A stretch of 64,000 nt of DNA, taken from Parasedimentitalea psychrophila (GTDB taxonomy: Bacteria > Pseudomonadota > Alphaproteobacteria > Rhodobacterales > Rhodobacteraceae). Within the stretch, counting starts at the first letter, position 1. Every line of letters begins with the position of its first letter. The stretch spans positions 4,425,501 through 4,489,500 of the forward strand of contig NZ_CP127247.1 in assembly GCF_030285785.1 (NCBI RefSeq), read 5' to 3'. The translations under genes were made by a program, and so were the position numbers. Below are positions 12,360-58,417 of this stretch, piece after piece. Under the pieces are notes generated by a model. The model did no database searches, had not been told where the DNA came from, and saw only the letters and a program-made list of their open reading frames with translations.

Positions 12360-12397
12360 GTGAGCCCCTGCTGGGGCATGCCCCAGCAGGGGCTCAC
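12360..12397. repeat. 38-bp perfect palindrome
   Basis: Arms GTGAGCCCCTGCTGGGG and its exact complement meet at CATG, giving 19 bp on each side without mismatch. There is no T-run on either side, so it is not a typical terminator. It lies between an integrase scar and the 3' end of the HyuA-like gene. May be a fused inverted-repeat end of a lost element or a recombinase site. Confidence 0.85.
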
Positions 12398-17976: not shown

Positions 17977-17989
17977 GCTGTCCCCTTTG

Positions 17990-21144: not shown

Positions 21145-21260
21145 CACTGCAGTCGTCGGTGCACGCTGCAGCGAACGGCTCCTTACCGCCCTTAGTGCCC
21201 CATATGCCGCGTCATGCTGCACCCGGCACGAATGTCGTAGAAGGGCTGATAACCGCCGTT
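21145..21260. repeat. Dispersed intergenic repeat (right edge of prophage 1 cargo)
   Basis: One of the fullest copies: GCAGCGAACGGCTCC, then ACCGCCCTTAGTG, followed by CATATGCCGCGTCATGCTGCA and TGTCGTAGAAGGGCTGA. The same order occurs at 35100-35245. It closes the cargo block just before phage gene G. Confidence 0.75.
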
Positions 21261-21499
21261 AGACGTGTTTGGCACCAATGACCGGTTAGGACCGTTCGCT
21301 CCTGTAGACCAATGACAATAAGCAAGGGCATTGTCCGCAATCGAGCCAATTGTGATCATCGCAGCGACTGGCTGCGATCCACTCGCTCGTTACTCATTTG
21401 CGGTGAGAGTCGTATCGTTTACGAATGAGAAAAACCGGCGGCTTCAGCCAAAGAGCTTGGCGACCTGATGCCAGCAACAACAGCAAAGGTAGAATTACC

Positions 21500-29290: not shown

Positions 29291-29837
29291 TGTTGTTGGA
29301 CACTAGATATTGCAGTAACCGGAAGACCCCGGAGGATGGCGGAAGAATCCGGATAGAACCTTACAAACAAGGGATTTTGTGTCGGTGGATCGCATCCTGG
29401 ACAGGTCTGATGGGTGTCCTTCAAAACAGCTTAAAACGGGCCTTTAACGCCGTTTGTCCAATATTGAGACACCTAACTTTGCAAATTCCCCTGTCCTCCC
29501 TGAGAGCCTTATAAATAGGGTTAATCGACTATTCTAACCGTCCCGGCGCCCTACCAAGTGAGCCTCTTCCTAGGGACGGAACTGGGAAATCCCGTTCCAA
29601 GTTTGTTCACGGCTTCCCAGATAAAGATTAGTTGAAAATAATCAAAGACATAGAGGTATTTGATAAGTTCGCTTGCGTGCCGGAAGTGGGAAGCGTTTTT
29701 GGTGGGAACTGACACATGGTGCCCCCATCTGGGGTCCGAGAACGGCACCATTTTCGTACACTTTCTTCCGATACCGACCCTTCGCCGCGTCCAGCACCAA
29801 CGGCAGCTACGAGCAGATTGTGACCTTTGCAAAGTCG
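29291..29837. repeat. 548-bp direct repeat, copy A
   Basis: Starts TGTTGTTGGACACT and ends GACCTTTGCAAAGTCGG. It matches 33437-33984 along its whole length with scattered substitutions (for example TTCCGATACCGACCCTTCGC is shared exactly). A reverse 93-codon frame is open in both copies, yet the protein resembles nothing known and differs at about one residue in six. Probably non-coding mobile or repeat DNA. Confidence 0.85.
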
Positions 29838-29859
29838 GGGTTGCCCTGCGTCCTGAAGG

Positions 29860-33436: not shown

Positions 33437-33984
33437 TGTTGTTGGACACTTATTATTGCAGTAACCGGAAGAGCCCGGAGGATGCCGGAAGAAGCCGGAT
33501 AGAACCTTACAAACAAGGGGTTTTGTGACGGTGGGCCGCATCCTGGGCAGGATTGATGCGTGTCCTTCAAAACAGCTTAAAACGGGCCTTTAATGCCGTT
33601 TGGCCAATATTGGGACACCTAACCTTGCAAATTATCCTGACCTCCCTGAGAGCCTTATAAATAAGGTTACTCGGCCATTCTAACCGTCCCGGCACCCTAC
33701 CAAGTGAGCCTTTTCCTAGGGACGGAACTGGAAAATCCTGCGCCAAGTTTGTTAACGGCTTCCCAGAAAGGGATTAGTTGAAAATAATCAAAGGTATAGA
33801 GGTATTTGATACGTTCCCTTGCGTGCAGGAAGTGGGAAGCGATTTTGGAGAGAACTAACACATGGTGCCCCCTTCCGGGATCCGAGAACGGCACCATTTT
33901 CGTACATTTTCTTCCGATACCGACCCTTCGCCGCGTCCACCACCAACGGCAGCTATGCGCAGTAATTGACCTTTGCAAAGTCGG
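33437..33984. repeat. 548-bp direct repeat, copy B
   Basis: Same orientation as 29291-29837, 4146 bp apart. The two copies enclose the methyltransferase-free segment with the binding protein and the hybrid kinase. Recombination between them would delete the sensor pair cleanly. Confidence 0.85.
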
Positions 33985-43862: not shown

Positions 43863-44125
43863 AAAAGCCCCGCCACCGTGTTTCTGACCATGCCGTCCTG
43901 CGCTACATACAGCGCGTCCAGGGCGTCGACATTGAGGCCCTGCGGCGCAGGATCGGCCAAATTGTCGACCGGCACCGGGAGCACGATGGCGCCAGTGGGG
44001 TGGTTTCTGGCGGCTTTGTCTACAAGCTCCAGGGCGGTGTTGTGGCCACCATCATTTCAGCCACTCGCCGAAACCAAAGGACCAGTCGCAAAGGTGGGAA
44101 CAGGCCGCGCAATGACCGCTCCTGA
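43859..44125 (+). CDS. Small conserved early phage protein, copy 2
   Basis: 88 residues from ATG 43859 overlapping the gemA stop. SDHAVLRYIQRVQGVDIEAL and GGFVYKLQGGVVATII are kept; the last 20 residues diverge from copy 1. Function unknown. Confidence 0.7.
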   Translation: MKKPRHRVSDHAVLRYIQRVQGVDIEALRRRIGQIVDRHREHDGASGVVSGGFVYKLQGGVVATIISATRRNQRTSRKGGNRPRNDRS

Positions 44126-44519
44126 CCGCACCCATCCAAGGCCAACCGCCCAGGTCGAACCCTATTTCGAGGTCCTGGGCCTGGACGACACCCTGCGCTT
44201 TATTGAAGAGTTCGGCGGCACCGAAATCTATATCGCCAGAAATCCGAGAACTCGGTCCAGCGTTGTCGCATTGCTGGGCTTTGACAAGGCAAACGCGCTG
44301 ACCAGCATATCCCACCGCTTGCAACCAAGGGTCCCTCTGGCCAAAAAATGGCGGGCTCGAGCCTACAAATCCCAAGGCTTGGTAACGGTAGAGATCGCCC
44401 GCAAACTTGGAGTTACCGATGTGGCAGTGCGAAATTGGCTGAGGGCTGGCGACATTCAAGAGCCTGCAAGATGTGAACGTCTTCCATTGTTACCGTTGCC
44501 TCTTTTTCCAGACCTCTAG
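44112..44519 (+). CDS. Mor/C-type transcription activator, copy 2
   Basis: 135 residues from ATG 44112. FIEEFGGTEIYIARNPRTRS and HTH GLVTVEIARKLGVTDVAVRN. Last gene of the early operon. In this prophage it should drive the late operon, whose first gene now lies 3.8 kb away because a cargo cassette intervenes. Confidence 0.88.
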   Translation: MTAPDRTHPRPTAQVEPYFEVLGLDDTLRFIEEFGGTEIYIARNPRTRSSVVALLGFDKANALTSISHRLQPRVPLAKKWRARAYKSQGLVTVEIARKLGVTDVAVRNWLRAGDIQEPARCERLPLLPLPLFPDL

Positions 44520-44909
44520 GGGTAAAGGCAAAATTACAGGCAAACTCGCGGTGGTAGTGTTGTACATGGGTGGCGGTTTTTCAGTTGCAGCATCCGTCAA
44601 AAAGGGCGGATTTCGGTCATTCGCTGCAGTTCGCTCCGATGGCGGCTATGCGCAGTTAGCACATTTTGCAAAGTTCAGGCCGCCATGCATAGTGGAAGGG
44701 CGCGAACGGCCCACAGCTGCCTTTCGTGTAGTTTGCGGTGAAGGCCCGCTCCGAGTCTATTCTGTTGCGGGATCGACGCCACAGCGTACAACCCTGAACC
44801 TGAAATGGTGTGCGCAATAGATCAAGAAGCCGATCTCACTAATCTTGGCAGATCTATTTGTTTCTGCGGCTCGATTTTGCCCGGCGATCAATATCTATTC
44901 CGTTGTTGA
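44520..44909. repeat. Dispersed repeat cluster at left edge of cargo cassette A
   Basis: From about 44595: AAAGGGCGGATTTCGGTCATTCGCTGCAG-type core, then GCAGTTAGCACATTTTGCAAAG, then CGCGAACGGCCCACAGCTGCC. Several repeat variants in series. No gene of its own. Confidence 0.6.
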
Positions 44910-45731
44910 TCATTTAAAGAAATACTTTACACCAACGTATGGGCCATGTTGAACCATATCGTAGGCAAATTCACCACCTGGTAACGTGTCGCTATAGTCG
45001 ATACTGAAATAACGATACCCAAACGTGATCGCTGTGTTATCCCATGGCTGGTAATCAAACCCTATATTGACGCCAATTTGTAGGTCATTGCCACCTGCTC
45101 CGAAGCCTCCGAGATCCATCGACGCCACAGTTGTCCATTTGTCATTGAGTTTCCACATTCCGCGTGCTCCTATCACGGGCTCAAACCAACCTTCGTCACC
45201 ACCAAGCGTTGGCGGAACACCAGGTCCGGGCGTAGTAATGTCGATGGTTTGTCGGATGGAATTGTAGCGTGCTCCCCCCTGAATATCGAAGGTATAGCGC
45301 TGGTTCGAAGCGCCATAGGTTCCGTCAGCAACTCGATATGCAGCAAGGACGCCAAACCATTTTTGTCTGACGTCGACTTCAATTCCGGAACCTAGTGGTC
45401 CTGGTAGAGCATCCGCATGGCCAATTGCGGCGTAGTTAGCGTCAACTATAACCCCAAAGTCTCCATTCCAAGCTTCGTAGCGGCCAGCCGCTGCGAAATC
45501 CAACAGATCCAATACGTCACCCAAATCTAGGTCGATGTCGGCAGATCTTCCTGCAATCGTCGATGTCCCGTGGGTTCGAGCAGGTAAGAACGCATATGCG
45601 CCAATGGTGTGCCGCCAGCCGTCTTCGCTCTGCCCTGGTGCAGGTAAGGATTGTGAATAAACTGCGCTACCGGCAAATGTTGCAATGGTCGCGATTGAGA
45701 TGACGCTAACAGTGCTCAAATTAATTTCCAT
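44910..45731 (-). CDS. Outer-membrane beta-barrel protein (cargo cassette A)
   Basis: 273 residues. Signal peptide (VSVISIATIATFAGSAVYSQ). The rest alternates polar and hydrophobic residues in strands, and the last residue is preceded by YVGVKYFF, a typical outer-membrane insertion signal. Strand pairs such as IGFDYQPWDNTAITFGYRYF support an eight-or-more-stranded barrel. It follows the DUF3604 gene on the same strand after 203 bp. Confidence 0.82.
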   Translation of the reverse strand: MEINLSTVSVISIATIATFAGSAVYSQSLPAPGQSEDGWRHTIGAYAFLPARTHGTSTIAGRSADIDLDLGDVLDLLDFAAAGRYEAWNGDFGVIVDANYAAIGHADALPGPLGSGIEVDVRQKWFGVLAAYRVADGTYGASNQRYTFDIQGGARYNSIRQTIDITTPGPGVPPTLGGDEGWFEPVIGARGMWKLNDKWTTVASMDLGGFGAGGNDLQIGVNIGFDYQPWDNTAITFGYRYFSIDYSDTLPGGEFAYDMVQHGPYVGVKYFFK

Positions 45732-45934
45732 ATTAGGGGATTCCCTTTCAACTTAACTTTTGAAGATTAACGATTGCATTCGGCTATATCGGGATGATAT
45801 ATGAATGCAATTCCTACACTTAGTGATGCGGAATAAGTTTTCCGATATGACATTAATCCCTTTTGCATCAACGCATGGCAGCTCCGAGCCCGAAGCGGAC
45901 TCGGTATGGCGTCAGCTTTCCTCGGTGCAATACC

Positions 45935-47857
45935 TCAGGGTGTATACCAAATGGGTGACGTGTATGCCCGGTCTTGAAGGGTCGGTGGTACGCTTTCGGG
46001 GAGTGGGATTCCATAAAACGCCGCGTCGTATGTCGTCCACCGAGGCTTTGGGATTTCGATCACTCGAACGTAGTAAAACGCATTGTTCGTCGCGTCGAAC
46101 TCCGGGTCCTGCCAGTAGCCAGCCAGCGTCGCCGAGCCAATCGAATTGCTGTAGGTCGCGTTTTCGATATCTACCGTCGATCCGACCGGTTCATGCGCCC
46201 GGCCGTCCTCACCAATCTCACGATTGCCGGACACGGCCACATCAAACACCCGTTCGTGCGTTTCACCGGCAGCATCGATCCATCCCTTGATGATCTGCAC
46301 ACGGTCAAGATTGGCTCCATCCGGATCGCGCATTGCGCGAACCAGAAATCGTGGTGCGGCACTATCGGGCGCGTTGACAAGATCGCTGCCCATTGGAACA
46401 CCATTCTGGTAGCCGTTGGAAACAAAATCAGGAGCCTGAAGGTCGGACTCTTCAAAGTCCCAGCCACCAAATACCCTTACGCGGATGCGGCTGCCAGTCG
46501 TCGCATAGGCCTCCTTGCGGGTGATCGCACCAAATACTTCCTTACGGGTGTTTTCGCGGGCCCAGACGGCGGTGAGGCCGGACGCAGATTCCTGGGCGGT
46601 CAGTATCCTCAACGCCGGATCATCGGTGGGGATCACGTCCAAATTGTGCCGGTTGGCGGATGGTTCCGTGTGCTGGTACTTCCCAAAGTAATTGTCCTCA
46701 CGCGTCGTGGGAAGAGCGGTGTGCGTGTCCGTGTTTCCGTAAAGCCCGAATTTGTAAGGGTTTACTCCGATATCTCGCTCAATCTCCAGCCCCACCTTTA
46801 GTGCAGACCGGGCGTACTCGTATTTCAGCATTTCCGGTGTTTTGGGTGCAGTCCCTGCAAGGTTGGAAACATCCCAGCGTTCGAATCCTGCAAACTCGTC
46901 ATCCGGCGACAAAAGCGGATGGGTTTCTTCATCGCCTTTAATCTGGGTCACCTCATGCATCGGCTCCCAGCGAATACGCTTGGCCGCATATTCTGCATCC
47001 ATGGCCGACCCGTCGAACTTGTTCCTGTTGAACATCAGCCCATTCGACACATTCCCGTTATGCGGCACGGCGATGGCCTGCCCGCCGATATTGGCCTCGT
47101 AGTCGGCCAGATAGTCCCAGAGCATTTCCGGGTCTGGCGCTAGGAAAAACGGCAAGGGGCGGGTTTGGCTGGTTTTCTCGGCACCATCGCCAAAGATGAT
47201 CACGCGATGCAGGTTGTCGCCCTTGGGTGTGAAGGTCCATTCGAACCCGCTCAGCGCGGTAAAGGTACCCGGGTCATTGTATTGGTCCACTGCCTGGACA
47301 ATATCGAGCCAGATATCACCATCGAGATTGAGGCCTTCAGTCGGGTCAATTCCCTGCACCGTTGCCAGGTCAATGATCTCCGAAAATGCAGCCATCCGGC
47401 CTTGCTGCCCTTCTCCAAACTGGTCGTAAATACGTCTACCCCAGTCGTCCTGCAACAGGCTCGGGTTTGACGTGCGGATCGCTGTGGAAAGGCCCAGCAT
47501 CTCTGCGTGCTCCGTAATTGCCAAAAAATCGAGCGGCCGAATAAGCTGTATGGGCTGGCCAGTATTCGACATGATTTTTTCGCCACGTGCCACGCGGAAT
47601 GCGTCGTGGATATTTAAAGAGGTACCAATCAAGCCCGCATCAAATGAAATCTCAGTATGAAAATGCAAATCTCCGAACAGGACCTGATCAGGATAAGACC
47701 GATGGACGAAAGGCGAGTAGTTCTCGGTGCCGTCTACTGTTTCCGTCGATACGACGCCTTCAAACGCGTGCACATCCAAAGCCATCAGTGACAGCGCAAC
47801 CACGCTTGCAGAAAGTATGGGGCGCTCTGCTCGAAAAAACGTTCCAAAAAAGTTCAT
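45935..47857 (-). CDS. DUF3604 family secreted protein (cargo cassette A)
   Basis: 640 residues with a signal sequence (ILSASVVALSLMALDVHA). Conserved metal-type motifs resemble PHP hydrolases: FGDLHFHTEISFDAG, LAITEHAEMLG, VPHNGN and GNTDTHTALPTT. The DUF3604 family is common in marine bacteria and its reaction is unproven. It lies backwards relative to the phage operon, between mor and the endolysin, so it is an accessory gene with its own promoter. Confidence 0.9.
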   Translation of the reverse strand: MNFFGTFFRAERPILSASVVALSLMALDVHAFEGVVSTETVDGTENYSPFVHRSYPDQVLFGDLHFHTEISFDAGLIGTSLNIHDAFRVARGEKIMSNTGQPIQLIRPLDFLAITEHAEMLGLSTAIRTSNPSLLQDDWGRRIYDQFGEGQQGRMAAFSEIIDLATVQGIDPTEGLNLDGDIWLDIVQAVDQYNDPGTFTALSGFEWTFTPKGDNLHRVIIFGDGAEKTSQTRPLPFFLAPDPEMLWDYLADYEANIGGQAIAVPHNGNVSNGLMFNRNKFDGSAMDAEYAAKRIRWEPMHEVTQIKGDEETHPLLSPDDEFAGFERWDVSNLAGTAPKTPEMLKYEYARSALKVGLEIERDIGVNPYKFGLYGNTDTHTALPTTREDNYFGKYQHTEPSANRHNLDVIPTDDPALRILTAQESASGLTAVWARENTRKEVFGAITRKEAYATTGSRIRVRVFGGWDFEESDLQAPDFVSNGYQNGVPMGSDLVNAPDSAAPRFLVRAMRDPDGANLDRVQIIKGWIDAAGETHERVFDVAVSGNREIGEDGRAHEPVGSTVDIENATYSNSIGSATLAGYWQDPEFDATNNAFYYVRVIEIPKPRWTTYDAAFYGIPLPESVPPTLQDRAYTSPIWYTP

Positions 47858-48221
47858 TTCGATCTCCTGTTAAAAACCGACAGTCAGTTAAATCAGACAC
47901 AACCGGCATTACCCAAATAAATCACCTTAATCTGCATGTTGCCGCTGTTTTTGAGCCCCCAATCAAGCGTCTTGGACAAGCGGTGCTATGAAACGGCCAT
48001 CTGAGGCATGACCTAAGCAGCCGGGAAGGCGAACGGTAGTACAGACCGCTCTGCCGTCAATGCCCAGTTGGAAATGCTGCGCTCCGAAACTATGACCGCA
48101 ATGACAGGCCGCACCGCAGCAATCCGAACCTATGGTCAAAGTCGGCTCTGGGCTGAAAGCACCAATTGACCTAATCCCAAAACCTCCCCAAACAATCACT
48201 CTCTGACCTTGGCGGCTGCCT
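47858..48221. other. Right edge of cassette A, no gene
   Basis: Contains degraded repeat pieces around 47985-48120 (GAAACGGCCATCTGAGGCA, GGCGAACGGTAGTACAGACC). The leftward promoter for DUF3604 should be near 47860-47960. Confidence 0.45.
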
Positions 48222-48239
48222 CCCACAACCTGTTGCGGG
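48222..48239. promoter_or_regulatory. Dyad before endolysin (late-promoter candidate)
   Basis: CCCACAAC-CTG-TTGCGGG with one mismatch in the stem, followed by TGTTTCTGCC. Resembles the dyads before the protease genes (22038, 58466), which share TTGYGGGTGT. Sits 64 bases before the endolysin start. No upstream gene ends here, which argues against a terminator. Confidence 0.55.
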
Positions 48240-48303
48240 TGTTTCTGCCCGCCCTAAATCGGCCAATGTGTACCTGTGATCAGGTTGCATAAGGGGTCGA
48301 GCG

Positions 48304-48915
48304 GTGAAGTCAGTTCAGCAAATTGCCAATGACATTGTCGCGCGCGAGGGCGGCTATGTGAACGACGCCGACGATCCCGGCGGCGCCACCAACTTTGGCG
48401 TGACGATCCACACCATGCGGCGTCTGGGTCTGGACCTGGACCGCGACGGTGATGTGGATGCCTCGGATGTGCGCCGCCTGACCCGGTCCCAGGCGGTTGA
48501 TATTTTCATCCAGCACTATTTCCAGAAGCCGCGCATAAGCCTGTTGCCGGTCGCGCTGCAGTCCTCGGTTTTCGACATGTATGTCAACGCTGGCGGCAAT
48601 GCGGTGAAGATCCTGCAGCGGTTGCTTGGCGAGTTTCAGGAGCCGGTGACCGTGGACGGATCACTCGGGGCGAAGACCGCCGCCGCTGTCCACCGGGCCT
48701 TCAAGAAAGCGGGATCTTTTTTCATAGACGCCTACGGCATTGCCCGCCGCAATTACTATTTCCGCCTGGCTGACCGGCGCACAGCGTCGCGCAAATACGC
48801 CCGCACTAGGGCGGGCGGTAAAGGCGGCTGGATCAAGCGGGCCGAGGAGTTCATCAGCCCGCAATTCCATATGACAGATCAAGATTTTTCCAAACGTGTG
48901 GGGGGCTGGGCATGA
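48304..48915 (+). CDS. Endolysin, glycoside hydrolase 108 family
   Basis: 203 residues from GTG 48304. The catalytic Glu lies in AREGGYVN (E15), followed by DPGGATNFGVTIHTM and the C-terminal peptidoglycan-binding-3 region (GEFQEPVTVDGSLGAKTAAA). An inserted loop DLDRDGDVDASD has the D-x-D-x-D-G spacing of EF-hand/dockerin calcium sites. It cleaves the murein glycan at lysis. First gene of the late operon; overlaps the holin by 4 bp. Confidence 0.93.
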   Translation: MKSVQQIANDIVAREGGYVNDADDPGGATNFGVTIHTMRRLGLDLDRDGDVDASDVRRLTRSQAVDIFIQHYFQKPRISLLPVALQSSVFDMYVNAGGNAVKILQRLLGEFQEPVTVDGSLGAKTAAAVHRAFKKAGSFFIDAYGIARRNYYFRLADRRTASRKYARTRAGGKGGWIKRAEEFISPQFHMTDQDFSKRVGGWA

Positions 48916-49475
48916 ACTTGCTGAAGATGATATTTGGCGGTGGCCGCAATGTGATCACCGAGACCGCTGAAGTGTTCATGGAGAACACCGAGGCAGGCGC
49001 ACAACGCCGCGCCGATTATGCGCAGTCGGCATTGGGCCAATTCGGAGCTGAGTTCCCGGTGGAGCGCAAGGGTTGGTTTGACCGCTTTATGGACGGGCTC
49101 AACCGCCTGCCCCGGCCGTTGATCGTGATCGCCGTCTTTTCGCTGTTTGCCTCGTCCATGTTCGACCCGCTTTGGTTTGCCGAACGGATGCAGGGGTTGA
49201 CGCTGGTGCCGGATCCACTGTGGTGGCTGGCCGGGACCATTGTCGCGTTCTATTTTGGCGGCCGCTTCCAGATGAAGTCGCAGGAGTTCAGTCAGGCCAT
49301 CGCGCAAAGCACCGCCCGGTTGCCGCAGGTGCTGCAAAACATCACCCAAATTCGTGCCCTTCGACATGACACGCCGGGTGCTGCCGAAACCGGTACCGAC
49401 ACCGCGCTGTCCCAGATGGCCATTGAGCCGTCAGACAACGAGGCCGTGCGCGCCTGGCATGAGGGCAGCAAGTGA
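48912..49475 (+). CDS. Holin family protein
   Basis: 187 residues in ATGA overlap with the endolysin. N-terminal amphipathic region, then two strong hydrophobic segments (PLIVIAVFSLFASSMFDPLW and LWWLAGTIVAFYFGGRF). This fits the three-TM holin family of rhodobacterial Mu-like phages. The C-terminal tail is charged and cytoplasmic. Should time the release of the endolysin. Confidence 0.82.
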   Translation: MNLLKMIFGGGRNVITETAEVFMENTEAGAQRRADYAQSALGQFGAEFPVERKGWFDRFMDGLNRLPRPLIVIAVFSLFASSMFDPLWFAERMQGLTLVPDPLWWLAGTIVAFYFGGRFQMKSQEFSQAIAQSTARLPQVLQNITQIRALRHDTPGAAETGTDTALSQMAIEPSDNEAVRAWHEGSK

Positions 49476-49834
49476 CTTTGGACCCCGAACTGGCCCTGAA
49501 AATATTGGGATTGGCCATTCCCCTGGGCGGCATCCTTTACACGTGGTTCGCCACCAGGCGCAAAGATGTGGACAGCGATTTCAAGGCCGTCGCTGCCCGC
49601 CTGGACGTAGGCTCCAAACGTATGGACGCGCTGGAGTTGAGAGCTCAGGCTACGGAACTTGCCCTGGGCAATATGCCAAACAAGGACGACATGCACAGCC
49701 TGCAGCTCATGCTCTCAGAAATGGGCGGTGACATGAAAGCCCTGCGCGCCACGATGCGATCCGTCGCCGAAAGCCAAAGCAGGCTGGAAATCGTCACCAC
49801 ACGCCACGAAGATTATCTGCGGGAAACCAAATGA
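49472..49834 (+). CDS. DUF2730 family phage protein
   Basis: 120 residues from GTG 49472, overlapping the holin stop. One N-terminal membrane helix (ALKILGLAIPLGGILYTWFA), then a long coiled coil. This architecture, membrane anchor plus coiled coil, is spanin-like in position, but the family function is not proven. Confidence 0.78.
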   Translation: MTLDPELALKILGLAIPLGGILYTWFATRRKDVDSDFKAVAARLDVGSKRMDALELRAQATELALGNMPNKDDMHSLQLMLSEMGGDMKALRATMRSVAESQSRLEIVTTRHEDYLRETK

Positions 49835-50127
49835 GCTATTCAGACACAGTGCGCCAACATGCGCGGATTGCCATTCTCCGCTTTCTGGAAGATGCGCCGC
49901 GCTACACCTCAAATGTGTCCATGCTGGCCTCGCAACTGCCTCTTATCGGAATTGCCTTTACCCGCGCCCAAGTGGTGACCGAGCTGGCCTGGCTTAAAGA
50001 GCAAGGCCTGGTCGAGACTGAGGAGACCGGCGCCTTCATCGTTGCCACCGCAACCACTCGCGGGGTTGAAATCGCCCAGGGCATAGCCCGCCATCCCGAA
50101 ATCCAGCGCCCCAAGCCGGGGGCGTAA
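49831..50127 (+). CDS. Small winged-helix phage protein (VpaChn25_0724 family-like)
   Basis: 98 residues. The segment ILRFLEDAPRYTSNVSMLAS and TRAQVVTELAWLKEQGLVET form a winged helix. Always found between the lysis genes and DUF3486 in Mu-like phages. Overlaps its upstream neighbour (ATGA). Confidence 0.78.
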   Translation: MSYSDTVRQHARIAILRFLEDAPRYTSNVSMLASQLPLIGIAFTRAQVVTELAWLKEQGLVETEETGAFIVATATTRGVEIAQGIARHPEIQRPKPGA

Positions 50128-50129
50128 TC

Positions 50130-50687
50130 ATGCCACCGTCCAAGAAAATGGATCTGATCCCAGCCGAGTTGCGCCAACGCCTGGCGCAGCTGCTGCAGGA
50201 CCGGGGTTTCGGTGACATTATGGAAATCACCGAGGAGCTGAATTCCTGGTTGGATGAACGCGGCGAAGAAATCCGCATCGGAAAAACCGCTGTCGGCGAG
50301 TTCTCCAAGCTGCTGAAGTCCCAACGCGACGCCTTTGCCATGGCTGAAACCTTGCTGTCCGATCTGGACATCGAGGGCGAAAGCAACATGCACAAGGTGC
50401 TGATGCAGATGATTGCAACTGCCGCCTTCCAGATGATGCAGGGCATGTCTGACAAGGACCAGGACTTCGACCCCAAAGGCTTGGCCAGCCTGTCCCGCAT
50501 GCTCAAGGACCTGATGCAATCGGCCGGTATGCGCGAAAAGCTGCGAGAGGACGAGCGCAACCGGGTGGCGCAAAAGGCCCGCGAAGACGCCGTCGATGAC
50601 ATTGAAAAAGCTGCCACCCAGCTCGGCATGACCAAAGAAACCGTCCAGGGCATCCGCGAACAGGTTCTGTTTGGAGGCAAGCGATGA
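50130..50687 (+). CDS. DUF3486 family, small terminase-like protein (Mu gp27)
   Basis: 185 residues, mostly helical, starting MPPSKKMDLIPAELRQRL with an HTH (IRIGKTAVGEFSKLLKSQRD). In Mu-like phages this gene precedes the large terminase and is the probable DNA-recognition subunit. Overlaps the terminase start. Confidence 0.85.
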   Translation: MPPSKKMDLIPAELRQRLAQLLQDRGFGDIMEITEELNSWLDERGEEIRIGKTAVGEFSKLLKSQRDAFAMAETLLSDLDIEGESNMHKVLMQMIATAAFQMMQGMSDKDQDFDPKGLASLSRMLKDLMQSAGMREKLREDERNRVAQKAREDAVDDIEKAATQLGMTKETVQGIREQVLFGGKR

Positions 50688-52363
50688 GCCCTGACACCCT
50701 CACAGACCAGGACTGGGAGAGCTTGCGCGCTGAAAGCCGCCAGGCGCTGCCCAATGTCATTGCGGATGACGACGACCTGCCAGCGGTGCTGCTGCCCTAC
50801 CAGGTCGAGCTGCTGCAAACGACAGCCGCATATCCTTTTGTGGTCTGCGAGAAGTCCCGCCGAATTGGCATGACCTGGGCGGTGGCGGCGGATGCGGTGT
50901 TGACCTCTGGTGCCTCCAAACCTGCTGGCGGCATGGACACACTCTATATTGGCTTCAATCTCGACATGGCGCGCGAGTTCATCGACACCGCCGCCATGTG
51001 GGCCAAGGCCTTCATTCCGGCTGCCAGCGGGATGCAGGAGTTCCTGTTCAAAGATCAGCGTAACGGCGAAGAAGACCGCGACATCCTTGCCTTCCGGATC
51101 AAGTTTGCCTCTGGCTTTGAAATCGTCGCCCTGACCAGCAAGCCGCGATCCTTGCGAGGCCGCCAGGGCTATGTGATCTTTGACGAAGCCGCCTTCCATG
51201 AAGAGCTGGATGAGATGCTGAAAGCCGCCAACGCGCTGCTGATGTGGAGCGGTAAGGTGTTGGTGATTTCCACCCATGACGGCGATGCCAACCCGTTCAA
51301 TGTGCTGGTGCGCCAGGTCCAGGCCGGTGAGCGTGGTGAGAATGCCAAAGTGTTGCGGGTCGATTTCAACGACGCCATCGCGGCCGGGCTTTATGAGCGC
51401 ATCGCCCTGGTCACCGGCGAAGCTGACACAGACGAGGCCAAGAAAGCCTGGACGGACAATATCCACGCGATCTATGGCGACGACGCCGACGAAGAGCTGC
51501 ACTGCCTTCCCAAGGCGGGCACCGGGGCCTGGCTGAACGCACCGCTGATCGAGGCGCGCATGACCGCCGATGCCCCGGTCCTGACCTTGGAATTGCCCGA
51601 CGGTTATCTGCAGTTGCCGGAAGACCGGCGACGAGATCTGTTGCGCGATTTCATGCTGGATCTGGAAAAGCTGCTCTCGGGTCTCGACCAAAAGCCCCAT
51701 TACGCCCTGGGATTTGACTTTGCCCGCGTGGCCGACCTGTCGGTCCTGAGCCTGCTGGCCATTGAACAGAACTTGAATCGGCGTGAGGCTCTGTCGATTG
51801 AAATGCGCAACGTGCCAGGCGACGAGCAAAAGGCCATCGTCGAAGAGGTCATGAGCGCAGTGCGCGAACGCCTGGTCGGCGCCGCCTTTGATGCCACCGG
51901 CATGGGCTGGACCGTGGCCGAAGACATGGGCCGCAAATTTGGCCTGCGCGAAAGCATCGACACCCCCGGCCTGGTCTGGGCCATCAAGTTTAGCCAGGAC
52001 TGGTACCGGCTGGAAATGCCGCCCCTTAAAACTGCCTTTGAAGACGCCACAATCTCCATCGGCAAGAGTGACGACCACCTGACCGATTTGCGTTCAGTGA
52101 AGAAGATCCGGGGCATCCCACGGGTGCCGGACGTGCGCGAGAGCGATGCCAAGGGCAAGAAACGCCACGGCGACTATGCCATTGCCCTGGCGCTGGCGCA
52201 TTTTGCATCGCGCCAGCGTTGGGTGGAAATCGACTACACGCCCGTTGGCGACCCGCGCCGGGAAAGCCTGACCGGATCATCGGGCGGCGAATGGGGCACC
52301 ATGTCCGAAGGCAGTGACTGGTGGCGCTCACCGCTGGGCGCTGGATTAAGAGGGGGGATCTGA
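50684..52363 (+). CDS. Large terminase subunit (Mu gp28-like)
   Basis: 559 residues. ATPase motor motifs: adenine-binding LPYQVELLQTTA, a Walker A variant CEKSRRIGMTWA, and Walker B VIFDEAAFHEE. The nuclease domain starts at ALGFDFARVADLSVLSLL, with its catalytic aspartate. Packages phage DNA by headful, including flanking host DNA in a Mu-like life cycle. Stop overlaps the portal start (TGATG). Confidence 0.93.
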   Translation: MSPDTLTDQDWESLRAESRQALPNVIADDDDLPAVLLPYQVELLQTTAAYPFVVCEKSRRIGMTWAVAADAVLTSGASKPAGGMDTLYIGFNLDMAREFIDTAAMWAKAFIPAASGMQEFLFKDQRNGEEDRDILAFRIKFASGFEIVALTSKPRSLRGRQGYVIFDEAAFHEELDEMLKAANALLMWSGKVLVISTHDGDANPFNVLVRQVQAGERGENAKVLRVDFNDAIAAGLYERIALVTGEADTDEAKKAWTDNIHAIYGDDADEELHCLPKAGTGAWLNAPLIEARMTADAPVLTLELPDGYLQLPEDRRRDLLRDFMLDLEKLLSGLDQKPHYALGFDFARVADLSVLSLLAIEQNLNRREALSIEMRNVPGDEQKAIVEEVMSAVRERLVGAAFDATGMGWTVAEDMGRKFGLRESIDTPGLVWAIKFSQDWYRLEMPPLKTAFEDATISIGKSDDHLTDLRSVKKIRGIPRVPDVRESDAKGKKRHGDYAIALALAHFASRQRWVEIDYTPVGDPRRESLTGSSGGEWGTMSEGSDWWRSPLGAGLRGGI

Positions 52364-54012
52364 TGACCCAAAGATTGCAAAAAGTTCTCGGCCCCAATGG
52401 CCGTCCCATTGAGCGCGCATCGCTTACAGAGGAAATCGCCGCCCCGAGCTTTGGCGGCGTGCGCTCCCCCATCGCCGGCTACCCGGCCGACGGGCTGAAC
52501 CCGCTGCGTCTGGCGCAGATACTCAGATCTGCTGACCACGGCGACCCCGTGCGCTATCTGGAGCTGGCCGAGGCCATTGAAGAGCGCGATTCGCATTACG
52601 TCGGTGTGCTTGGCACCCGCAAACGCCAGGTCAGCCAGCTCGGCATTACGGTAGAGGACGGCGACGACAGCCCCATCGGCGTCGAGATGGCCGAGCGGGT
52701 CCGCAAGTGGTTGAAGCGCGGCGAGCTGACCGGAGAGCTGTTCCATATTCTGGATGCTGTGGGCAAAGGCTATTCCTTCACCGAGATCATCTGGGAGCGC
52801 TCCGAAGGGCAATGGCAGCCGCGTGAGCTGAAGCGCCGCGACCCCCGTTGGTTCAGGTTTGAGCGGCATGACCTGGAAACCCCGCTCATGCTGAACAATA
52901 TCGGCCAGGAGGTCCCCCTGCCCGCCTTCAAGTTCATCTATGCCCGTATGCAGGCAAAGTCTGGTCTGGCCCTGCGATCCGGTATCGCGCGGGTGGCGGC
53001 CTGGACCTGGATGTTCAAAGCCTTCACTCAACGGGATTGGTCGATCTTCAGTCAGACTTACGGCCAACCTTTGCGGATCGGCAAATATGGACCGGGTACG
53101 TCTGAGAAAGACCGCAATAAGCTGTTTCAGGCGGTGGCCAATATCGCCGGGGACTGCGCCGCCATCATTCCCGAAAGCATGATGATTGAATTTGTCACGG
53201 CGCAGAACATGGGCTCGTCCACCGAGCATTATGAAAAGCGCTGTGACTGGCTGGACCGGCAAACCTCCAAGCTGGTGCTGGGCCAGACAGCCACCACCGA
53301 TGCCGTCACCGGGGGCTTGGGATCGGGCAAAGAGCACCGAGAGGTCCAGGAGGACATCGAGACCGCAGACGCTCAGGACCTTGGGGCGATCTTAAACCGC
53401 GATCTGATCATTCCCTGGATGCAGTTTGAGTTCGGGCCGCAAAAGATCTATCCGCGACTGGTGATCGCCCGTCCCGAAGCCGAAGACCTGAAAGCCTGGA
53501 CAGATGCGGCCGTGCCTTGGGTGCAGGTCGGTCTTGAAGTTGACCAGGCCGAAGTGCGCGAGAAGCTGGGCTTGAGTGCCCCCAAGGCTGGAGCCCCGAT
53601 TTTGGGGAAAACCGCCGCCACGCGGCCAAATTCGCGAGATGCAGGGAGCAACGGCAACCAGAACCCCACTGAGACTGAATTTGAATACCACTTAAAGGGC
53701 CTCAACGGAAAATTTCAGGGGGGTGCCGATCTACAGGCTCAAGAGCCCTCAGCGGGCCGCTTTGGCGATATTGAGCCCGCAGCCCTTTTGGCCGATCAAT
53801 TGGACCAAACCGCGACCCCGGCCGTGGATGGCATGGTGTCGACAATTGAGGCCATGCTGGAGGCCTCAGCCTCAATGGAAGAATTCCGCGATCACTTGCT
53901 GGTCGGCTTTCCCGATCTGCCCTCCGGTGACTTGGTCAAAATCATGGGCGAGGCCATTGCCGCTTCCCTGGCCGGGGGTCGCGCCATGATTGAGGCCAGC
54001 GCCGATGACTGA
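52363..54012 (+). CDS. Portal protein, DUF935 (Mu gp29-like)
   Basis: 549 residues from ATG 52363. Family segments: LNPLRLAQILRSADHGDPVR, EERDSHYVGVLGTRKRQVSQ, WTWMFKAFTQRDWSIFSQTY, and LILGQT-like LVLGQTATTDAVTGG. Forms the dodecameric DNA gate of the head. Its 3' 500 bp has a decayed copy at 9015-9530. The C-terminal ~120 residues are low in conservation. Confidence 0.93.
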   Translation: MTQRLQKVLGPNGRPIERASLTEEIAAPSFGGVRSPIAGYPADGLNPLRLAQILRSADHGDPVRYLELAEAIEERDSHYVGVLGTRKRQVSQLGITVEDGDDSPIGVEMAERVRKWLKRGELTGELFHILDAVGKGYSFTEIIWERSEGQWQPRELKRRDPRWFRFERHDLETPLMLNNIGQEVPLPAFKFIYARMQAKSGLALRSGIARVAAWTWMFKAFTQRDWSIFSQTYGQPLRIGKYGPGTSEKDRNKLFQAVANIAGDCAAIIPESMMIEFVTAQNMGSSTEHYEKRCDWLDRQTSKLVLGQTATTDAVTGGLGSGKEHREVQEDIETADAQDLGAILNRDLIIPWMQFEFGPQKIYPRLVIARPEAEDLKAWTDAAVPWVQVGLEVDQAEVREKLGLSAPKAGAPILGKTAATRPNSRDAGSNGNQNPTETEFEYHLKGLNGKFQGGADLQAQEPSAGRFGDIEPAALLADQLDQTATPAVDGMVSTIEAMLEASASMEEFRDHLLVGFPDLPSGDLVKIMGEAIAASLAGGRAMIEASADD

Positions 54013-55243
54013 CCCCATCGGAGCCATTTTCCGCAAACCCTTTGCGCAGCAGGTTGCGGCGTTTCGGCTGCGCCTGGGCGATCTGGTGCCCAGCTCGGCC
54101 TGGAATGACCTGGCAGGAAATGCCCACGACCGGGGGTTCATGGTGGCCGGAGCCGTAAAGGCGGATCTGCTGGCCGACCTGGCAGCCGCCGTCGAGCGGA
54201 CAATTACCGAAGGCACCGGAACTGCAGCCTTCAAACGCGATTTCAGGAGCATTGTCGCCAAGCACGGCTGGACCGGCTGGACAGGCGAGGACACCAAGGC
54301 CGGTCAGGCCTGGCGGATGCGAACCATCTATCACACCAATATGCGAACCTCTTATATGGCCGGTCGCCTTGCTCAGTTGCGCAAGGGCAAATTTGCCTTT
54401 TGGATCTATCGCCACGGCGGGTCAGCTGAGCCGCGTCTGCAGCACCTGGCCTGGGACGGGCTGGTGATGCCGTCGGATCATCCGTTCTGGCTGCAGCATT
54501 TTCCGCCCAACGGGTTTGGCTGCAATTGCCAGATCATTGGGGCCCGCACTATGGCTGGAGCCAAGCGGCGCGGCGGCGACCCCAACAAAACCCTTCAGGA
54601 CGGCTGGGACCAGGTGAACCCCAATACGGGCCGTCTGGACGGCATCGGCGACGGCTGGGACCATGCCCCTGGCGGCAGTGTTTCCGATTTAGTGCAGGTC
54701 CTGGCAGGCAAAACCGTCAACTGGCCCTATGCAATCTCCCGCGCCTTTATGGATGATCTGCCAGCCTCGGCCCAGGACGCCCATTCCTCAGCCTATCGCA
54801 ATCTGCCCTCCCTGCAGGACGATGTACGCCGCTACGCCGGGGCGGTGGCCGATGGTCGGACCGTCGCGCCGATCCGCACAATGGGTAGGCTGAGCCCGGC
54901 GCACCGGCGAAGCATTGCCAAAGTTTCAGGGCAGGATCTGGACAATTACCACTTCACTCTGGACGATTCCGCTGTGCGCCATGTTCTGGCCCAGTCTAGT
55001 GGCGCGTCTGACCGGTTCCCAATCAATCAGGAAAACCTTGCCCTACTGCCCCGCATCCTGGATCGCCCCGACAGTATCGAGGCGGACGGCACATCGAGCA
55101 CAGGCTATCCGGTTGTTCGCTTTACAAGACGGTTCGGCGCGCAGGTCTACACAGTGGTTTTGGAAATTCGAGGCAAGAAGCGGCGCATGTTGGCGGTGCA
55201 AAGCATGGGGGGGAGAACCACTCCCGCTGGATCCCCGACCTGA
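54005..55243 (+). CDS. Minor head protein F (MuF/gp30-like) with PBECR2-like C-terminal domain
   Basis: 412 residues from ATG 54005. The MuF/SPP1 gp7-like domain covers about 1-175 (IYHTNMRTSYMAGRLAQLRK ... HFPPNGFGCNCQIIGART). From about residue 300, DDSAVRHVLAQ, NLALLPRILDRPDSIEADG and YTVVLEIRGKKRRMLAVQSM fit the PBECR nuclease-like toxin fold found behind MuF. The last codons (GRTTPAGSPT) look foreign: a dispersed repeat and cargo follow, so the natural end was probably lost. Confidence 0.88.
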   Translation: MTDPIGAIFRKPFAQQVAAFRLRLGDLVPSSAWNDLAGNAHDRGFMVAGAVKADLLADLAAAVERTITEGTGTAAFKRDFRSIVAKHGWTGWTGEDTKAGQAWRMRTIYHTNMRTSYMAGRLAQLRKGKFAFWIYRHGGSAEPRLQHLAWDGLVMPSDHPFWLQHFPPNGFGCNCQIIGARTMAGAKRRGGDPNKTLQDGWDQVNPNTGRLDGIGDGWDHAPGGSVSDLVQVLAGKTVNWPYAISRAFMDDLPASAQDAHSSAYRNLPSLQDDVRRYAGAVADGRTVAPIRTMGRLSPAHRRSIAKVSGQDLDNYHFTLDDSAVRHVLAQSSGASDRFPINQENLALLPRILDRPDSIEADGTSSTGYPVVRFTRRFGAQVYTVVLEIRGKKRRMLAVQSMGGRTTPAGSPT

Positions 55244-55261
55244 ACGCCAAACCCGTTTTGC

Positions 55262-55330
55262 CCAATGCTGCCGTCGCAGAAATTCGTCACTATGGGCGGA
55301 GAGCGGAAGTTCGCTGCGCGTCGCACCAAT
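55262..55330. repeat. Dispersed intergenic repeat (left edge of cargo cassette B)
   Basis: CCAATGCTGCCGTCGCAG, ATTCGTCACTATGGGCGGA and GCGGAAGTTCGCTGCGCG: degraded copy just after the truncated F gene. Confidence 0.6.
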
Positions 55331-55554
55331 GTCTAAGATGCGGGTTTTGAGGGCATTCGAACCGGTTTTTGATTTTTTTTATGACCCTGCTTGCAGGGTC
55401 TTCCTCGTCTATTTCTGGATTTTCTGTTGGTGTAACTGACTTTATGATCACGTCTTAGCGTGGTGTGGCAGAAATGGTAATTTGCTAAAGGAATAGTCGG
55501 AATACCAAACTTAGGCCGGAGAACTATCTCTAACAAAACGAAGGAGATCGACTG

Positions 55555-56769
55555 ATGCGAGCATATATTTCAGTTTTACTTTCTGCGGTGCTCTGGGCGG
55601 CCTTACCCGCCAGCGTCGCGTTTAGCAAACCAGACAATGTTGACGGTACGAATGTACCAGAAGGTCGAATTCCTCAGGACATACTGGATAACAAGTATCC
55701 CCGCACATATTTTCCCGGAACGGAGAAGGTAGGGCCTGATGAAATGCGCATCACTGCGCTTGGAACCGGCATGCCGAACCAGTCGCCGAGCAATGCGGCC
55801 GCATCGTTCCTCGTTGAGCTTGGAAATGGCGAGGCGTTCATTTTTGATGCAGGCACTGGCTCGACCGACCGACTAGCCGGGCTCGAGCCCGATTACTCCA
55901 AGTTTGACAAGGTTTTCATCAGCCATTTGCACACCGATCATGCCGGTGATCTCGCGACGCTTTGGGTGGCGGGCTGGATCAATGGCAGGCACACCCCCCT
56001 TCATGTCTACGGGCCATCCGGGGCAAGCCCCGACTTAGGGACAAATTTCCACATTGACCACATTCGTGACGCGTGGCGATGGGATGTGACATCTCGCGCG
56101 GGAACTTTGCCGAATGCAGGTGGAATTATCGAAGCCCATGAATTCGACTATTCGAAAACTGCGGTCATTTACGATACTAATGGGGTCAAGATCACAAGCT
56201 TTCCAGCTATTCACATTCGCGACGGGTCGGTCAGCTACCGCCTGGACTGGAATGGTCTGAGTTTTGTCTTCGGTGGTGACTCCTACCCCAATCGATGGTT
56301 CGCCGAAAATTCCAAGGGTGCTGACGTTGTTGTGCACGAAGCGTTTTTTACTCCAGAACAGTGGATGGACATTGCAGGATTTCCATACAATCAGGCGTAT
56401 TGGGTAACTTCTGTGATCCACACGCCGCCGGAGGGGTTTGGAAAACTGATGTCGATAGTAGAGCCTCGCCTTGCGGTGGCTTATCACTACTGGAACCATC
56501 GCGACATTGAATTTGAAATTTATGAAGGCATCCGCAGTACTTATGACGGACCACTTGCCCTCGCCGATGATCTTACGGTGATAAACTTGACTAAGGATCA
56601 TATCGAAGTCCGCGAGGCAGTCATCAACCACGAGGCATGGCCGCAAGGTACCAGCATAGAATGGGACACCGCACCGCGCGGCGAACCGGCCACTGGCTTG
56701 ATCTCAGATTGGCTGGACGGAGGAAAGCTGGAGGGCTTGGTTCCTGCTCCAAAGGAGCCATTTGATTGA
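55555..56769 (+). CDS. Secreted MBL-fold metallo-hydrolase (cargo cassette B)
   Basis: 404 residues from ATG 55555 with GAAGGAG upstream. Signal peptide (YISVLLSAVLWAALPASVAF). Metallo-beta-lactamase motif FISHLHTDHAGD, with further ligands in FVFGGDSYPN and AYHYWNHRDIE. Overall size and order resemble the periplasmic MBL hydrolases annotated as GntH-like in cyanobacterial guanitoxin clusters, but a biosynthetic role cannot be claimed here. Rightward like the phage late operon, yet with its own upstream region. Confidence 0.85.
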   Translation: MRAYISVLLSAVLWAALPASVAFSKPDNVDGTNVPEGRIPQDILDNKYPRTYFPGTEKVGPDEMRITALGTGMPNQSPSNAAASFLVELGNGEAFIFDAGTGSTDRLAGLEPDYSKFDKVFISHLHTDHAGDLATLWVAGWINGRHTPLHVYGPSGASPDLGTNFHIDHIRDAWRWDVTSRAGTLPNAGGIIEAHEFDYSKTAVIYDTNGVKITSFPAIHIRDGSVSYRLDWNGLSFVFGGDSYPNRWFAENSKGADVVVHEAFFTPEQWMDIAGFPYNQAYWVTSVIHTPPEGFGKLMSIVEPRLAVAYHYWNHRDIEFEIYEGIRSTYDGPLALADDLTVINLTKDHIEVREAVINHEAWPQGTSIEWDTAPRGEPATGLISDWLDGGKLEGLVPAPKEPFD

Positions 56770-56814
56770 CCGATGGTGCTAACGCAGGTCGCGAGGATAT
56801 TGGCTGAGTAAATA

Positions 56815-56890
56815 TTGCTGCACCAAGCACATTTCGACACAAAGGGCGGTAAGTGGCCGTTCGCTGCGCTTCTCTCCAATGGCGGCAAAA
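56815..56890. repeat. Dispersed intergenic repeat (inside cassette B)
   Basis: GCACCAAGCACATTTCGACA, then AAAGGGCGGTAAGTGGCCG and TTCGCTGCGCTTC: reverse form of the core, between the hydrolase and the barrel gene. Confidence 0.7.
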
Positions 56891-56965
56891 GGTAAATTGC
56901 CAGCCCATCCTTTATAACACTGCTAATTGGGTTAACTCTGTACCAGCCCTAATACGGAGACAATT

Positions 56966-57712
56966 ATGACCTTTATTAGATCACTTCGCCGAATAGCGGC
57001 ACTTGCAGTCCTCTCTCTTTTTGCTGCGCCAGTATCGGCTGCCGAAAATGCGTCCAATCCGCTTTCAGCTGTCAACAACATCGACATCCGCTATCAAGCC
57101 TTGGATCTTGGCGGCGCGGACCGGCAGGATGTCTTCATCGATGGCTCGTTCATGCTGCGCGACAATCTGAAAATGAAATACGAGCTGCATTACAATTTCA
57201 CTGATGTGACCGGAACCCAACAATCAGGTATTGAGAAAGCGGTGTTGAAAGCGATCTTTTTTCCTTCGGAGAGGAAGTTGAACGAAACATGGAGGAGGAG
57301 GACCGCAGTCGGTCTCGAATGGACTTTGGATTTGGGAGATACAGCAAAGGGGATCGGCTCCGATGCTGACATACTTGCGCCGTTTGGCGGGGCTGCATTT
57401 GCAAATCGCAAGACAGGCCTGACGCTTATTCCTCTTGTGCAGCACTTTGAATCCTACAACGGATCTACTGACGTGCGCACAACGGCAGCAAGGCTGATCG
57501 CTCTTCGACCGTATAGAGAAAAATACTGGGCGAAGCTGGACCTGATTGTCCCCTATGACTGGCACAATGATACCGTGCCTGCGACTGCCGAAGTCCAGAT
57601 CGGGTACAACGTGAATGCAAAGATTGCTCTTTATGCAGATTTTCTTGTCGGGCTTGGCAAAGACCGCCCCTTTGACAAGGGGATCGGGATTGGGCTTCGC
57701 TTCAAGTACTAA
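56966..57712 (+). CDS. Outer-membrane beta-barrel protein (cargo cassette B)
   Basis: 248 residues. Signal peptide (ALAVLSLFAAPVSAAENAS). Amphipathic strands follow and the end IGIGLRFKY is a barrel-type terminus with final aromatic. Not clearly related to the barrel at 44910. It follows the MBL gene by 196 bp in the same direction, mirroring cassette A. Confidence 0.8.
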   Translation: MTFIRSLRRIAALAVLSLFAAPVSAAENASNPLSAVNNIDIRYQALDLGGADRQDVFIDGSFMLRDNLKMKYELHYNFTDVTGTQQSGIEKAVLKAIFFPSERKLNETWRRRTAVGLEWTLDLGDTAKGIGSDADILAPFGGAAFANRKTGLTLIPLVQHFESYNGSTDVRTTAARLIALRPYREKYWAKLDLIVPYDWHNDTVPATAEVQIGYNVNAKIALYADFLVGLGKDRPFDKGIGIGLRFKY

Positions 57713-57770
57713 AGCCGCCGTTCGCCGCAATGTTTATAGAGGTCGGCTCTGGGCCGTTTGAGCCAGTTGG
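57713..57770. repeat. Dispersed repeat fragment (right edge of cassette B)
   Basis: AGCCGCCGTTCGCCGCAATG then GAGGTCGGCTCTGGGCC, immediately after the barrel stop and 156 bp before gene G. Confidence 0.5.
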
Positions 57771-57925
57771 GACAACAACAATCAATAGCCAAATAGTCCG
57801 CAACCTGATCGCTCGTGGTCAACTCAGCGAATGGCTGCTGCCTTTGGTCATAACACTTTGCCGTAATTCTCATATTGGCTACTATCGGTCTGATCACCCG
57901 CAACAAAAGCAAAGGTAATACCTCA

Positions 57926-58417
57926 ATGGCAGCCATCGTTTACAACACTGACACCCTGGATCCGGCCCTGGCTGCGGTGGCTGCGGCCGTCGAGGACATG
58001 TCGCCAGTGATGGAAGCCATTGGCGAGTTGCTGCTGGTCTCAGCCCAAGATCGAATGCGCGACGGGGAACAACCCGATGGCTCTCCTTTTGCGCCCCGGT
58101 CTCAAACCACGCTGGATCGTTATGCCAAACTTGGCCTGACATTCGGGCAGCCGCTGAACGTCTCGGGCGATATGCGCAACACGCTGTTTTATGATGCTGC
58201 ACCTGACAGCGTTGAATATGGCTCAAACGCCATTCAGGCCGCTGTGATGCAGTTTGGTGCGGCAAAGGGGGGCTTTGGCAAGGCTTCAAACGGGTCTTCA
58301 ATCCCCTGGGGGACAATCCCAGCCCGTCCGTTTATCGGCCTGTCTGATGACGACCAGACCAATATTATCGCCGAGCTGGAAGACTGGCTTGAAGAGGCCG
58401 CCAATGCGCAGGATTGA
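57926..58417 (+). CDS. Phage virion morphogenesis protein (Mu G-like), prophage 2
   Basis: 163 residues from ATG 57926; near twin of 21500-21991. Motifs YNTDTLDPALAAVAAAVED, DRYAKLGLTFGQPLNVSGDM and SSIPWGTIPARPFIGLSD. In Mu it follows F directly; here a 2.7-kb cassette separates them. Role in joining heads and tails. Confidence 0.9.
   Translation: MAAIVYNTDTLDPALAAVAAAVEDMSPVMEAIGELLLVSAQDRMRDGEQPDGSPFAPRSQTTLDRYAKLGLTFGQPLNVSGDMRNTLFYDAAPDSVEYGSNAIQAAVMQFGAAKGGFGKASNGSSIPWGTIPARPFIGLSDDDQTNIIAELEDWLEEAANAQD

Follow-up and report, generated by a model that had tools for sequence, protein, structure and literature searches.

Secreted hydrolases and outer-membrane barrels as probable host-derived cargo in two slots of a Mu-like prophage of Parasedimentitalea psychrophila

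The 64,000-nucleotide stretch of DNA analyzed here ("the window") is the segment C1:4425501-4489500 of the 5.0 Mb genome (G000) of Parasedimentitalea psychrophila. A Mu-like prophage starts at ~36.7 kb in the window and extends beyond its end to a tail-fiber gene ending ~8.8 kb further on; it carries the four genes, arranged in two cassettes, that are the subject of this account. An initial annotation of the DNA had placed a gene for a DUF3604 protein and one for an outer-membrane barrel (B1), 203 bp apart, between mor and lys (cassette A), and a gene for a metallo-beta-lactamase-fold (MBL) hydrolase and one for a second barrel (B2), 196 bp apart, between F and G (cassette B); the open reading frames (ORFs) are found at precisely those places. 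It had also given signal peptides to the products, and these are seen again, by a hydropathy/AXA heuristic rather than a dedicated predictor. Cassette A lies on the minus strand, opposed to the phage late genes; cassette B lies on the plus strand and runs in their direction. The features, in order along the window, are these:

43878..44519, plus strand: mor-like late transcription activator (phrog_836, E 2.6e-21); left border of the mor-lys slot (slot 1)
44586..44655, minus strand: copy of the dispersed host repeat, chiefly module A (nhmmer E 2.9e-12; slot copies excluded from the training of the model); left edge of slot 1
44910..45731, minus strand: outer-membrane barrel B1, 273 aa (ORF; model of 12 strands, pLDDT 81; Foldseek)
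45935..47857, minus strand: DUF3604 hydrolase-like protein, 640 aa (PF12228, E 4e-230, 765.7 bits; secreted by the heuristic)
48304..48915, plus strand: endolysin of the GH108 type (PF05838, E 7e-25); right border of slot 1
53990..55243, plus strand: Mu F-like minor head protein (PF04233, E 3.1e-11; phrog_220, E 1.8e-73); left border of the F-G slot (slot 2)
55276..55343, minus strand: dispersed host repeat, module A (nhmmer E 3.5e-10); left edge of slot 2
55555..56769, plus strand: MBL-fold hydrolase, 404 aa, of the PNGM-1 / NF041257 family (NCBIfam, 431 bits; secreted by the heuristic)
56814..56886, minus strand: dispersed host repeat, module A, between MBL and B2 (nhmmer E 1.4e-13)
56966..57712, plus strand: putative outer-membrane barrel B2, 248 aa (ORF; model of 12 strands, pLDDT 73)
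57715..57842, minus strand: dispersed host repeat, module B (nhmmer E 1.3e-4; module B model E 1.5e-11); right edge of slot 2
57875..58417, plus strand: Mu G-like tail completion protein (PF05069, E 1.3e-26); right border of slot 2

The four cargo genes are atypical in composition: their GC content is 50.5-55.2%, against 57-62% (0.569-0.622) in nine core genes of the phage. A separate observation concerns the F protein (53990-55243), the C-terminal part of which scores 34.5 bits, against a cut-off of 30, with PBECR3, a nuclease domain whose name refers to phage proteins.

The mor-lys and F-G intervals are cargo slots: the four genes are inserted between genes that are adjacent in related phages. 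Mu-like loci were fetched, 187 in all (27 from the genomes searched and 160 from two collections, whose scans supplied the best 80 of at least 185 and the best 80 of at least 401 relatives; duplicates and the sibling records L130, L155, L156, L202 and L203 are included). These reduce to 146 that are distinct by F sequence, 138 of which are measurable for F-G, corrected for an unmatched F end; the window is not counted. The F-G gap is at most 520 bp in 129 of the 138, between 520 and 900 bp in 2, and longer than 900 bp in 7, both siblings included. The mor-lys gap is 85-516 bp in 21 of the 22 distinct loci with this endolysin, phages with another lysis gene being left out of the count. The cargo is accordingly absent from most of the relatives measured. 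The initial annotation had suggested that these genes are morons, and the shortness of the gaps in most related phages, together with the low GC relative to the core genes, supports this.

There is a sibling prophage in another genome of the genus (G007:C209), with protein identities of 91% for F, 93% for G and 96% for the endolysin. Its slots are filled, with other genes: the mor-lys slot holds an MBL-610 aa-HupE set and a TPR protein, and the F-G slot an alcohol dehydrogenase and a small protein. In the prophage of G001, also of the genus, mor and lys are 159 bp apart with nothing between them, while the F-G slot has two different ORFs, of which one is tail-fiber-like. Genes of the pool to which the cargo belongs appear in just one of the 187 Mu-like loci, L202, which is a record of the sibling phage G007:C209 itself. 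Elsewhere, by reading of the sequences, the F-G slot holds a chemoreceptor and Dam-type methylases; the chemoreceptor-like protein is that of a Phaeobacter phage (F-G gap of L223 / L359). The window contains a second Mu-like element as well, a prophage remnant at 9514-21471, the early region of which is 89% identical to that of "prophage 2"; the interval from its portal fragment to G is taken up by ~11.4 kb of genes for metabolism (an aldo/keto reductase, hydantoinase A, an AraC-type regulator and a Rieske dioxygenase). This block is flanked by repeat copies, at 9612-9749 and 21129-21380, that are partly in the training set of the repeat model described below.

Homologues of the cargo genes occur in bacteria, in clusters that lie outside phages. 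Among 101 genomes (own genome included), 17 have a member of the DUF3604 family and 17 one of the B1 family; the MBL family is represented in 30, and B2 is present in 4, with no more than a 47-residue fragment in G002. Within the bacterial family, B2 is found in 5 of 394 genomes, again counting its own. Outside phages, the genome of the window and G007 both have a B1-MBL-602 aa-HupE cluster; B1-B2-sulfatase clusters are found likewise in G045, G050 and G287; G014 has the MBL gene with B1 and sulfatase and, in addition, a DUF3604-DUF1254-amidohydrolase-MBL series; B1 stands with DUF3604 in G067; and DUF3604 is accompanied by PPIase and HupE in 12 loci. For each of the six close B1 homologues in the 101 genomes (at least 47% identity; window excluded), no more than about 1.1 kb separates the gene from one for a sulfatase, an MBL or a DUF3604 protein. 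The DUF3604-PPIase-HupE and B1-MBL-602 aa-HupE clusters draw on the same gene families as the phage, often adjacent to one another, but they are larger and lie outside phages, whereas the window phage has its hydrolases and barrels newly combined, and without HupE.

Are hydrolase and barrel fixed pairs, as the initial annotation supposed? In part: a secreted hydrolase near such a barrel does recur, but the pairs are not conserved units, and a design as units is not supported: DUF3604 occurs without B1 (G007:C30, L107) and B2 without MBL (G292:C167, L199). The DUF3604/B1 pair recurs a single time, with the order of its genes reversed, on a contig of 3.7 kb (L115) that none of five phage queries matched; the MBL/B2 pair is seen nowhere else in the searches of the 101 genomes and of the 394 genomes of the family. 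Nor is a conserved hydrolase-barrel pair found in other phages: in 50,697 phage records (from which records very near the window's genome may be excluded) DUF3604, B1 and B2 have no match, and MBL has two weak ones, of less than 30% identity and covering 28% and 52%. In IMG/VR, DUF3604 and MBL as single queries yield no relative, with a scan that reaches close relatives only, and the 80 IMG/VR loci fetched by F protein contain no gene of the pool. The "parallel design" that had been remarked on stands as a likeness of architecture and not as a duplication, because B1 has no match at B2 and B2 none at B1; copying of one cassette into the other is rejected on that lack of a mutual match in the window (at E 1e-5). 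It had been held, finally, that the phage-pair idea would fail if the same genes lay in ordinary chromosomal loci without phages and were unlinked there. They do lie in ordinary loci, yet they are linked there too, so that half of this holds.

The DUF3604 protein matches PF12228 across almost its whole length. An alignment of 9 sequences has 27 invariant His/Asp/Glu residues, among them H65, H67, H117, E206, H217, H266, D377 and H379, which would suit a metal site of the PHP kind. A literature search for DUF3604 lists a single paper. A near-identical copy of the gene (98.5% at the nucleotide level) is found in G007:C30 (L107), on a 5.1 kb contig; the matched stretch is 2,288 bp, the gene plus flanks, with B1 outside it. 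The coding parts differ by 13 synonymous and 4 non-synonymous changes, which shows purifying selection between the two copies. Their dS is 0.03, compared with 0.21-0.30 for three phage genes of the window and the G007 sibling prophage, and for this reason the DUF3604 gene was probably exchanged more recently than the two phages diverged. Relatives are also found in 78 of 72,556 plasmid records, the nearest (82% identity) on a 288 kb plasmid of another Rhodobacteraceae isolate, near sulfatase and formylglycine-generating enzyme genes; no barrel is listed as adjoining it in that collection's gene table, which is incomplete. Two further DUF3604 loci may be put on record. A third gene in the own genome, L010:5866-7809 (C1:4542365-4544308), adjoins endolysin and tail genes of a different prophage; and at L108:3918-8790 a 78% homologue of G012 sits, by reading, with a DUF1254-like gene and a barrel-like protein among apparent ribosomal protein genes.

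The MBL protein matches PF12706 (E 5.5e-15) and NCBIfam NF041257 (431 bits; cut-off 333); its nearest solved relative by sequence is PNGM-1 (PDB 6j4n, E 2e-95), and the HxHxDH motif is intact (HLHTDH at residue 124). PNGM-1 and the NF041257 (GntH) family are like it in sequence family and in this motif; it differs from PNGM-1 in being phage-borne and in having a signal-like N terminus. The "guanitoxin" in the family name of NF041257 is taken as an annotation label and nothing else; a literature search for guanitoxin with GntH found nothing.

B1 and B2 have weak matches to outer-membrane barrel models, below cut-off (for B2, 18.1 bits against 28.7 with Pfam OMP_b-brl). The AlphaFold models have 12 strands each, with pLDDT 81 for B1 and 73 for B2, the latter built from 5 sequences only. 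The 50 listed Foldseek matches of the B1 model are all outer-membrane proteins by title (best E 6e-8, best TM about 0.5). The B1 model thus has the marks of an outer-membrane beta-barrel: an even number of strands, likeness to solved barrels and, by the heuristic, a signal peptide. Twelve strands would leave room for a channel, which would suit transport better than a pure anchor. A copy of B2 (86% at the nucleotide level) on a 7.8 kb contig, G292:C167 (L199), lies beside an apparent CoA ligase and an apparent transporter, on a contig without MBL and without any of the phage genes queried.

Since the slots are short in most relatives, since the sibling carries the same pool, and since bacteria have the clusters, the four genes are probably host-derived morons in the mor-lys and F-G slots, from which the lysogen would gain periplasmic hydrolysis and outer-membrane transport. 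The source would be one gene pool of the Rhodobacterales and their relatives, comprising secreted hydrolases (DUF3604, PNGM-1-type MBL, sulfatase), barrels and HupE/UreJ-type membrane proteins, from which the mor-lys slot of the sibling phage would have been filled as well. The proteins would be made in the lysogen; the hydrolases would act in the periplasm or outside the cell, and the barrels would pass substrate or product across the outer membrane, the assignment of barrel to enzyme not being fixed. Hydrolysis and transport of this kind could let the lysogen use an extra ester-like nutrient.

Several results pull the other way. 1) The region has no excess of promoter-like sites (6, against 6.0 expected from shuffles, for the promoter types covered) or of terminator-like ones (7, against 13.9). 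2) DUF3604 has no solved relative by sequence, and hhalign against a CehA/McbA-type PHP protein of the own genome gives a weak match over 33 C-terminal columns (probability 63). 3) Selection on B2 is weaker (dN/dS 0.32), and the comparison covers DUF3604 and B2, there being no close pair for B1 or MBL. 4) The contigs that bear the DUF3604 and B2 copies are short (5.1 kb in G007, 7.8 kb in G292), and G007 probably represents a metagenome bin. 5) Of the 187 loci, many do not reach from one slot to the other. 6) The company of barrel and hydrolase thins out with distance: among 20 distant B1 homologues (two of them on ~7 kb contigs), there is a sulfatase or DUF3604 gene no farther than about 8 kb away in 4, and in a fifth only a DUF1254-like gene.

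How might such cargo enter a phage? A dispersed host repeat is present at most slot edges. Its core, near GCAGCGAACGGCNNCNTTCCGCCCTTAGTG, occurs in 19 copies in the own genome (3 mismatches allowed), 8 of them within 123 kb around the window, and in 31 copies in G007; in the rest of a set of 31 genomes there are 0-2 copies in each of 6 others of the genus, 1 in G013 and none in the other 22. The reversed core, as a control, has 0 matches. A profile hidden Markov model (HMM) was built from copies that do not lie in the slots. Where the window is prophage it detects four copies, each of which sits at the edge of a slot or separates MBL from B2 (E 1.4e-13 to 1.3e-4). In those stretches of the sibling contig that bear phage genes (L118, L155) its matches are likewise confined to slot edges and to gaps between cargo genes; one more lies in a stretch of that contig where nothing of the phage matches (L156). 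The prophage stretch of G001 has no HMM match, and among more distant phages (102 loci, 1.82 Mb) 2 matches reach E 0.01.

Homology between window and sibling breaks at 44610, 55318 and 57740, each within a repeat copy: that is, at three of the four slot edges. At the fourth (48216, the lys side) the models detect no copy in the window; the sibling's lys edge has one. Homology with the G292 copy of B2 starts at 56839, inside the repeat at 56814..56886. The polarity of the modules is constant, left edges being matched best by module A and right edges by module B, with the exception of the lys edge in the window; the same polarity is seen for the copies in L107 and L199, with faint module B matches (E 0.002-0.003), and the third DUF3604 gene of the own genome (L010) is flanked by repeat copies of the same polarity that belong to the training set. 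The DUF3604 break points, 45866 and 48153, are neither of them in a repeat match in the window; on the G007 contig there is a repeat ~60 bp outside the 3' break point and a faint module B match (E 0.0023) at the 5' one.

The breaks at three of four slot edges suggest, but do not prove, repeat-assisted exchange of cargo. One can imagine the two slots as "exchange bays" that trade their cargo through recombination inside members of the dispersed host repeat family, the unit being module B - gene(s) - module A; we entertain this as a possibility, and a doubtful one. The unit would move between the host chromosome, other prophages and the Mu-like phage, at times as a single gene, and by such exchange the phage lineage would sample the host's pool of secreted hydrolases and barrels. 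Against this it must be said that the A/B split is not clean, since both right edges of the sibling are matched by A too, if less well, and the left edges next to mor by B too; that the slots make up 60% of the intergenic bases of the prophage, so that it is no surprise to find all four repeats in them (p 0.13); that the slot edges are not independent, since the window and G007 siblings share ancestry; that the repeats may simply travel with host DNA; and that the copies do not form strong hairpins, a reading rejected on z-scores from -1.56 to 2.24 for 8 copies.

Some other observations on repeats stand by themselves. A match ~120 bp after the last tail-fiber gene (L012 8919-8986) is seen by blastn only and not by the HMM. 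A literature search for short interspersed or intergenic repeats with Roseobacter found nothing. Unconnected with the slots, the window has two 548 bp copies, 90% identical, of another sequence at 29291-29838 and 33437-33984.

As a first alternative, host DNA would have been caught at random and kept by chance, with no role for phage or lysogen. That the slots of different phages hold unrelated genes (alcohol dehydrogenase, chemoreceptor-like, methylase-like), that the insertion may be young and that four repeats out of four in the slots are unsurprising are in keeping with such passive hitch-hiking. We consider it unlikely nonetheless, given the purifying selection on DUF3604, four frames that are all open, and the presence of one gene pool in the same slot of two phages. 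A second alternative, that barrels and hydrolases change or mask phage receptors and so bring about superinfection exclusion, was raised in the "against other phages" clause of the initial annotation. Prophage-made outer-membrane proteins can alter the cell surface, and two other phages do have defense-type genes after mor: PADLOC finds ThsB-like TIR proteins in L247 (which has another lysis gene) and PDC-M30/M41 candidates between mor and lys in L240. The same models find nothing in the cargo discussed here (0 of 4 proteins at E 0.01), leaving that clause without support, and the close relatives of B1 and MBL stand in hydrolase clusters with sulfatase or HupE; surface alteration is, on this evidence, quite improbable. 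That the MBL cassette is a chemical-resistance moron, hydrolyzing beta-lactams as PNGM-1-type enzymes can, is scarcely credible: the nearest solved protein does have a weak beta-lactamase activity, but in the part of PMC6882493 that treats its activities this is called promiscuous and, with carbapenems, is said to be lower than that of true B3 enzymes by 3 or 4 orders, beside a tRNase Z-type RNase activity, and the relatives of the window's MBL adjoin HupE and a 602 aa protein.

Host-derived morons in fixed slots, the explanation that we prefer, have precedents. In Mu-like phages of Pseudomonas aeruginosa (the PaMx73 and DMS3 groups), as presented in the portion of PMC4378225 on their plasticity regions, accessory genes also occupy fixed sites between conserved Mu-like genes and are phage-specific, and some of these regions are of low GC, as is the window's cargo. 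Those regions consist mainly of ORFs of 34-100 codons, some of them anti-CRISPR, whereas the window has full-size secreted enzymes and barrels with bacterial homologues; and the window phage differs further in having a host repeat at most slot edges. The auxiliary metabolic genes of Rhodobacteraceae prophages, in the part of PMC8224337 that describes them, resemble the window's cargo in being host-type metabolic genes, none consistent across genera; they are unlike it in that the main text of that source nowhere uses the terms "lactamase", "sulfatase" or "outer membrane". PMC5488378, on two Mu-like roseophages, likewise contains none of the terms "moron", "auxiliary", "hydrolase" and "outer membrane".

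What emerges is that two related Mu-like phages carry different members of one host gene pool at the same place. The acquisition of morons is described as unexplained, and its mechanism as mysterious, in the discussion of Mu-like plasticity in PMC4378225, which reports no flanking sequence suggesting a common recombinase target. Here a concrete sequence, the dispersed host repeat, is present at most junctions and makes moron acquisition testable. If the exchange model is true, it would provide a candidate sequence target for moron acquisition, such as that same part of PMC4378225 does not recognize in the Pseudomonas Mu-like group.

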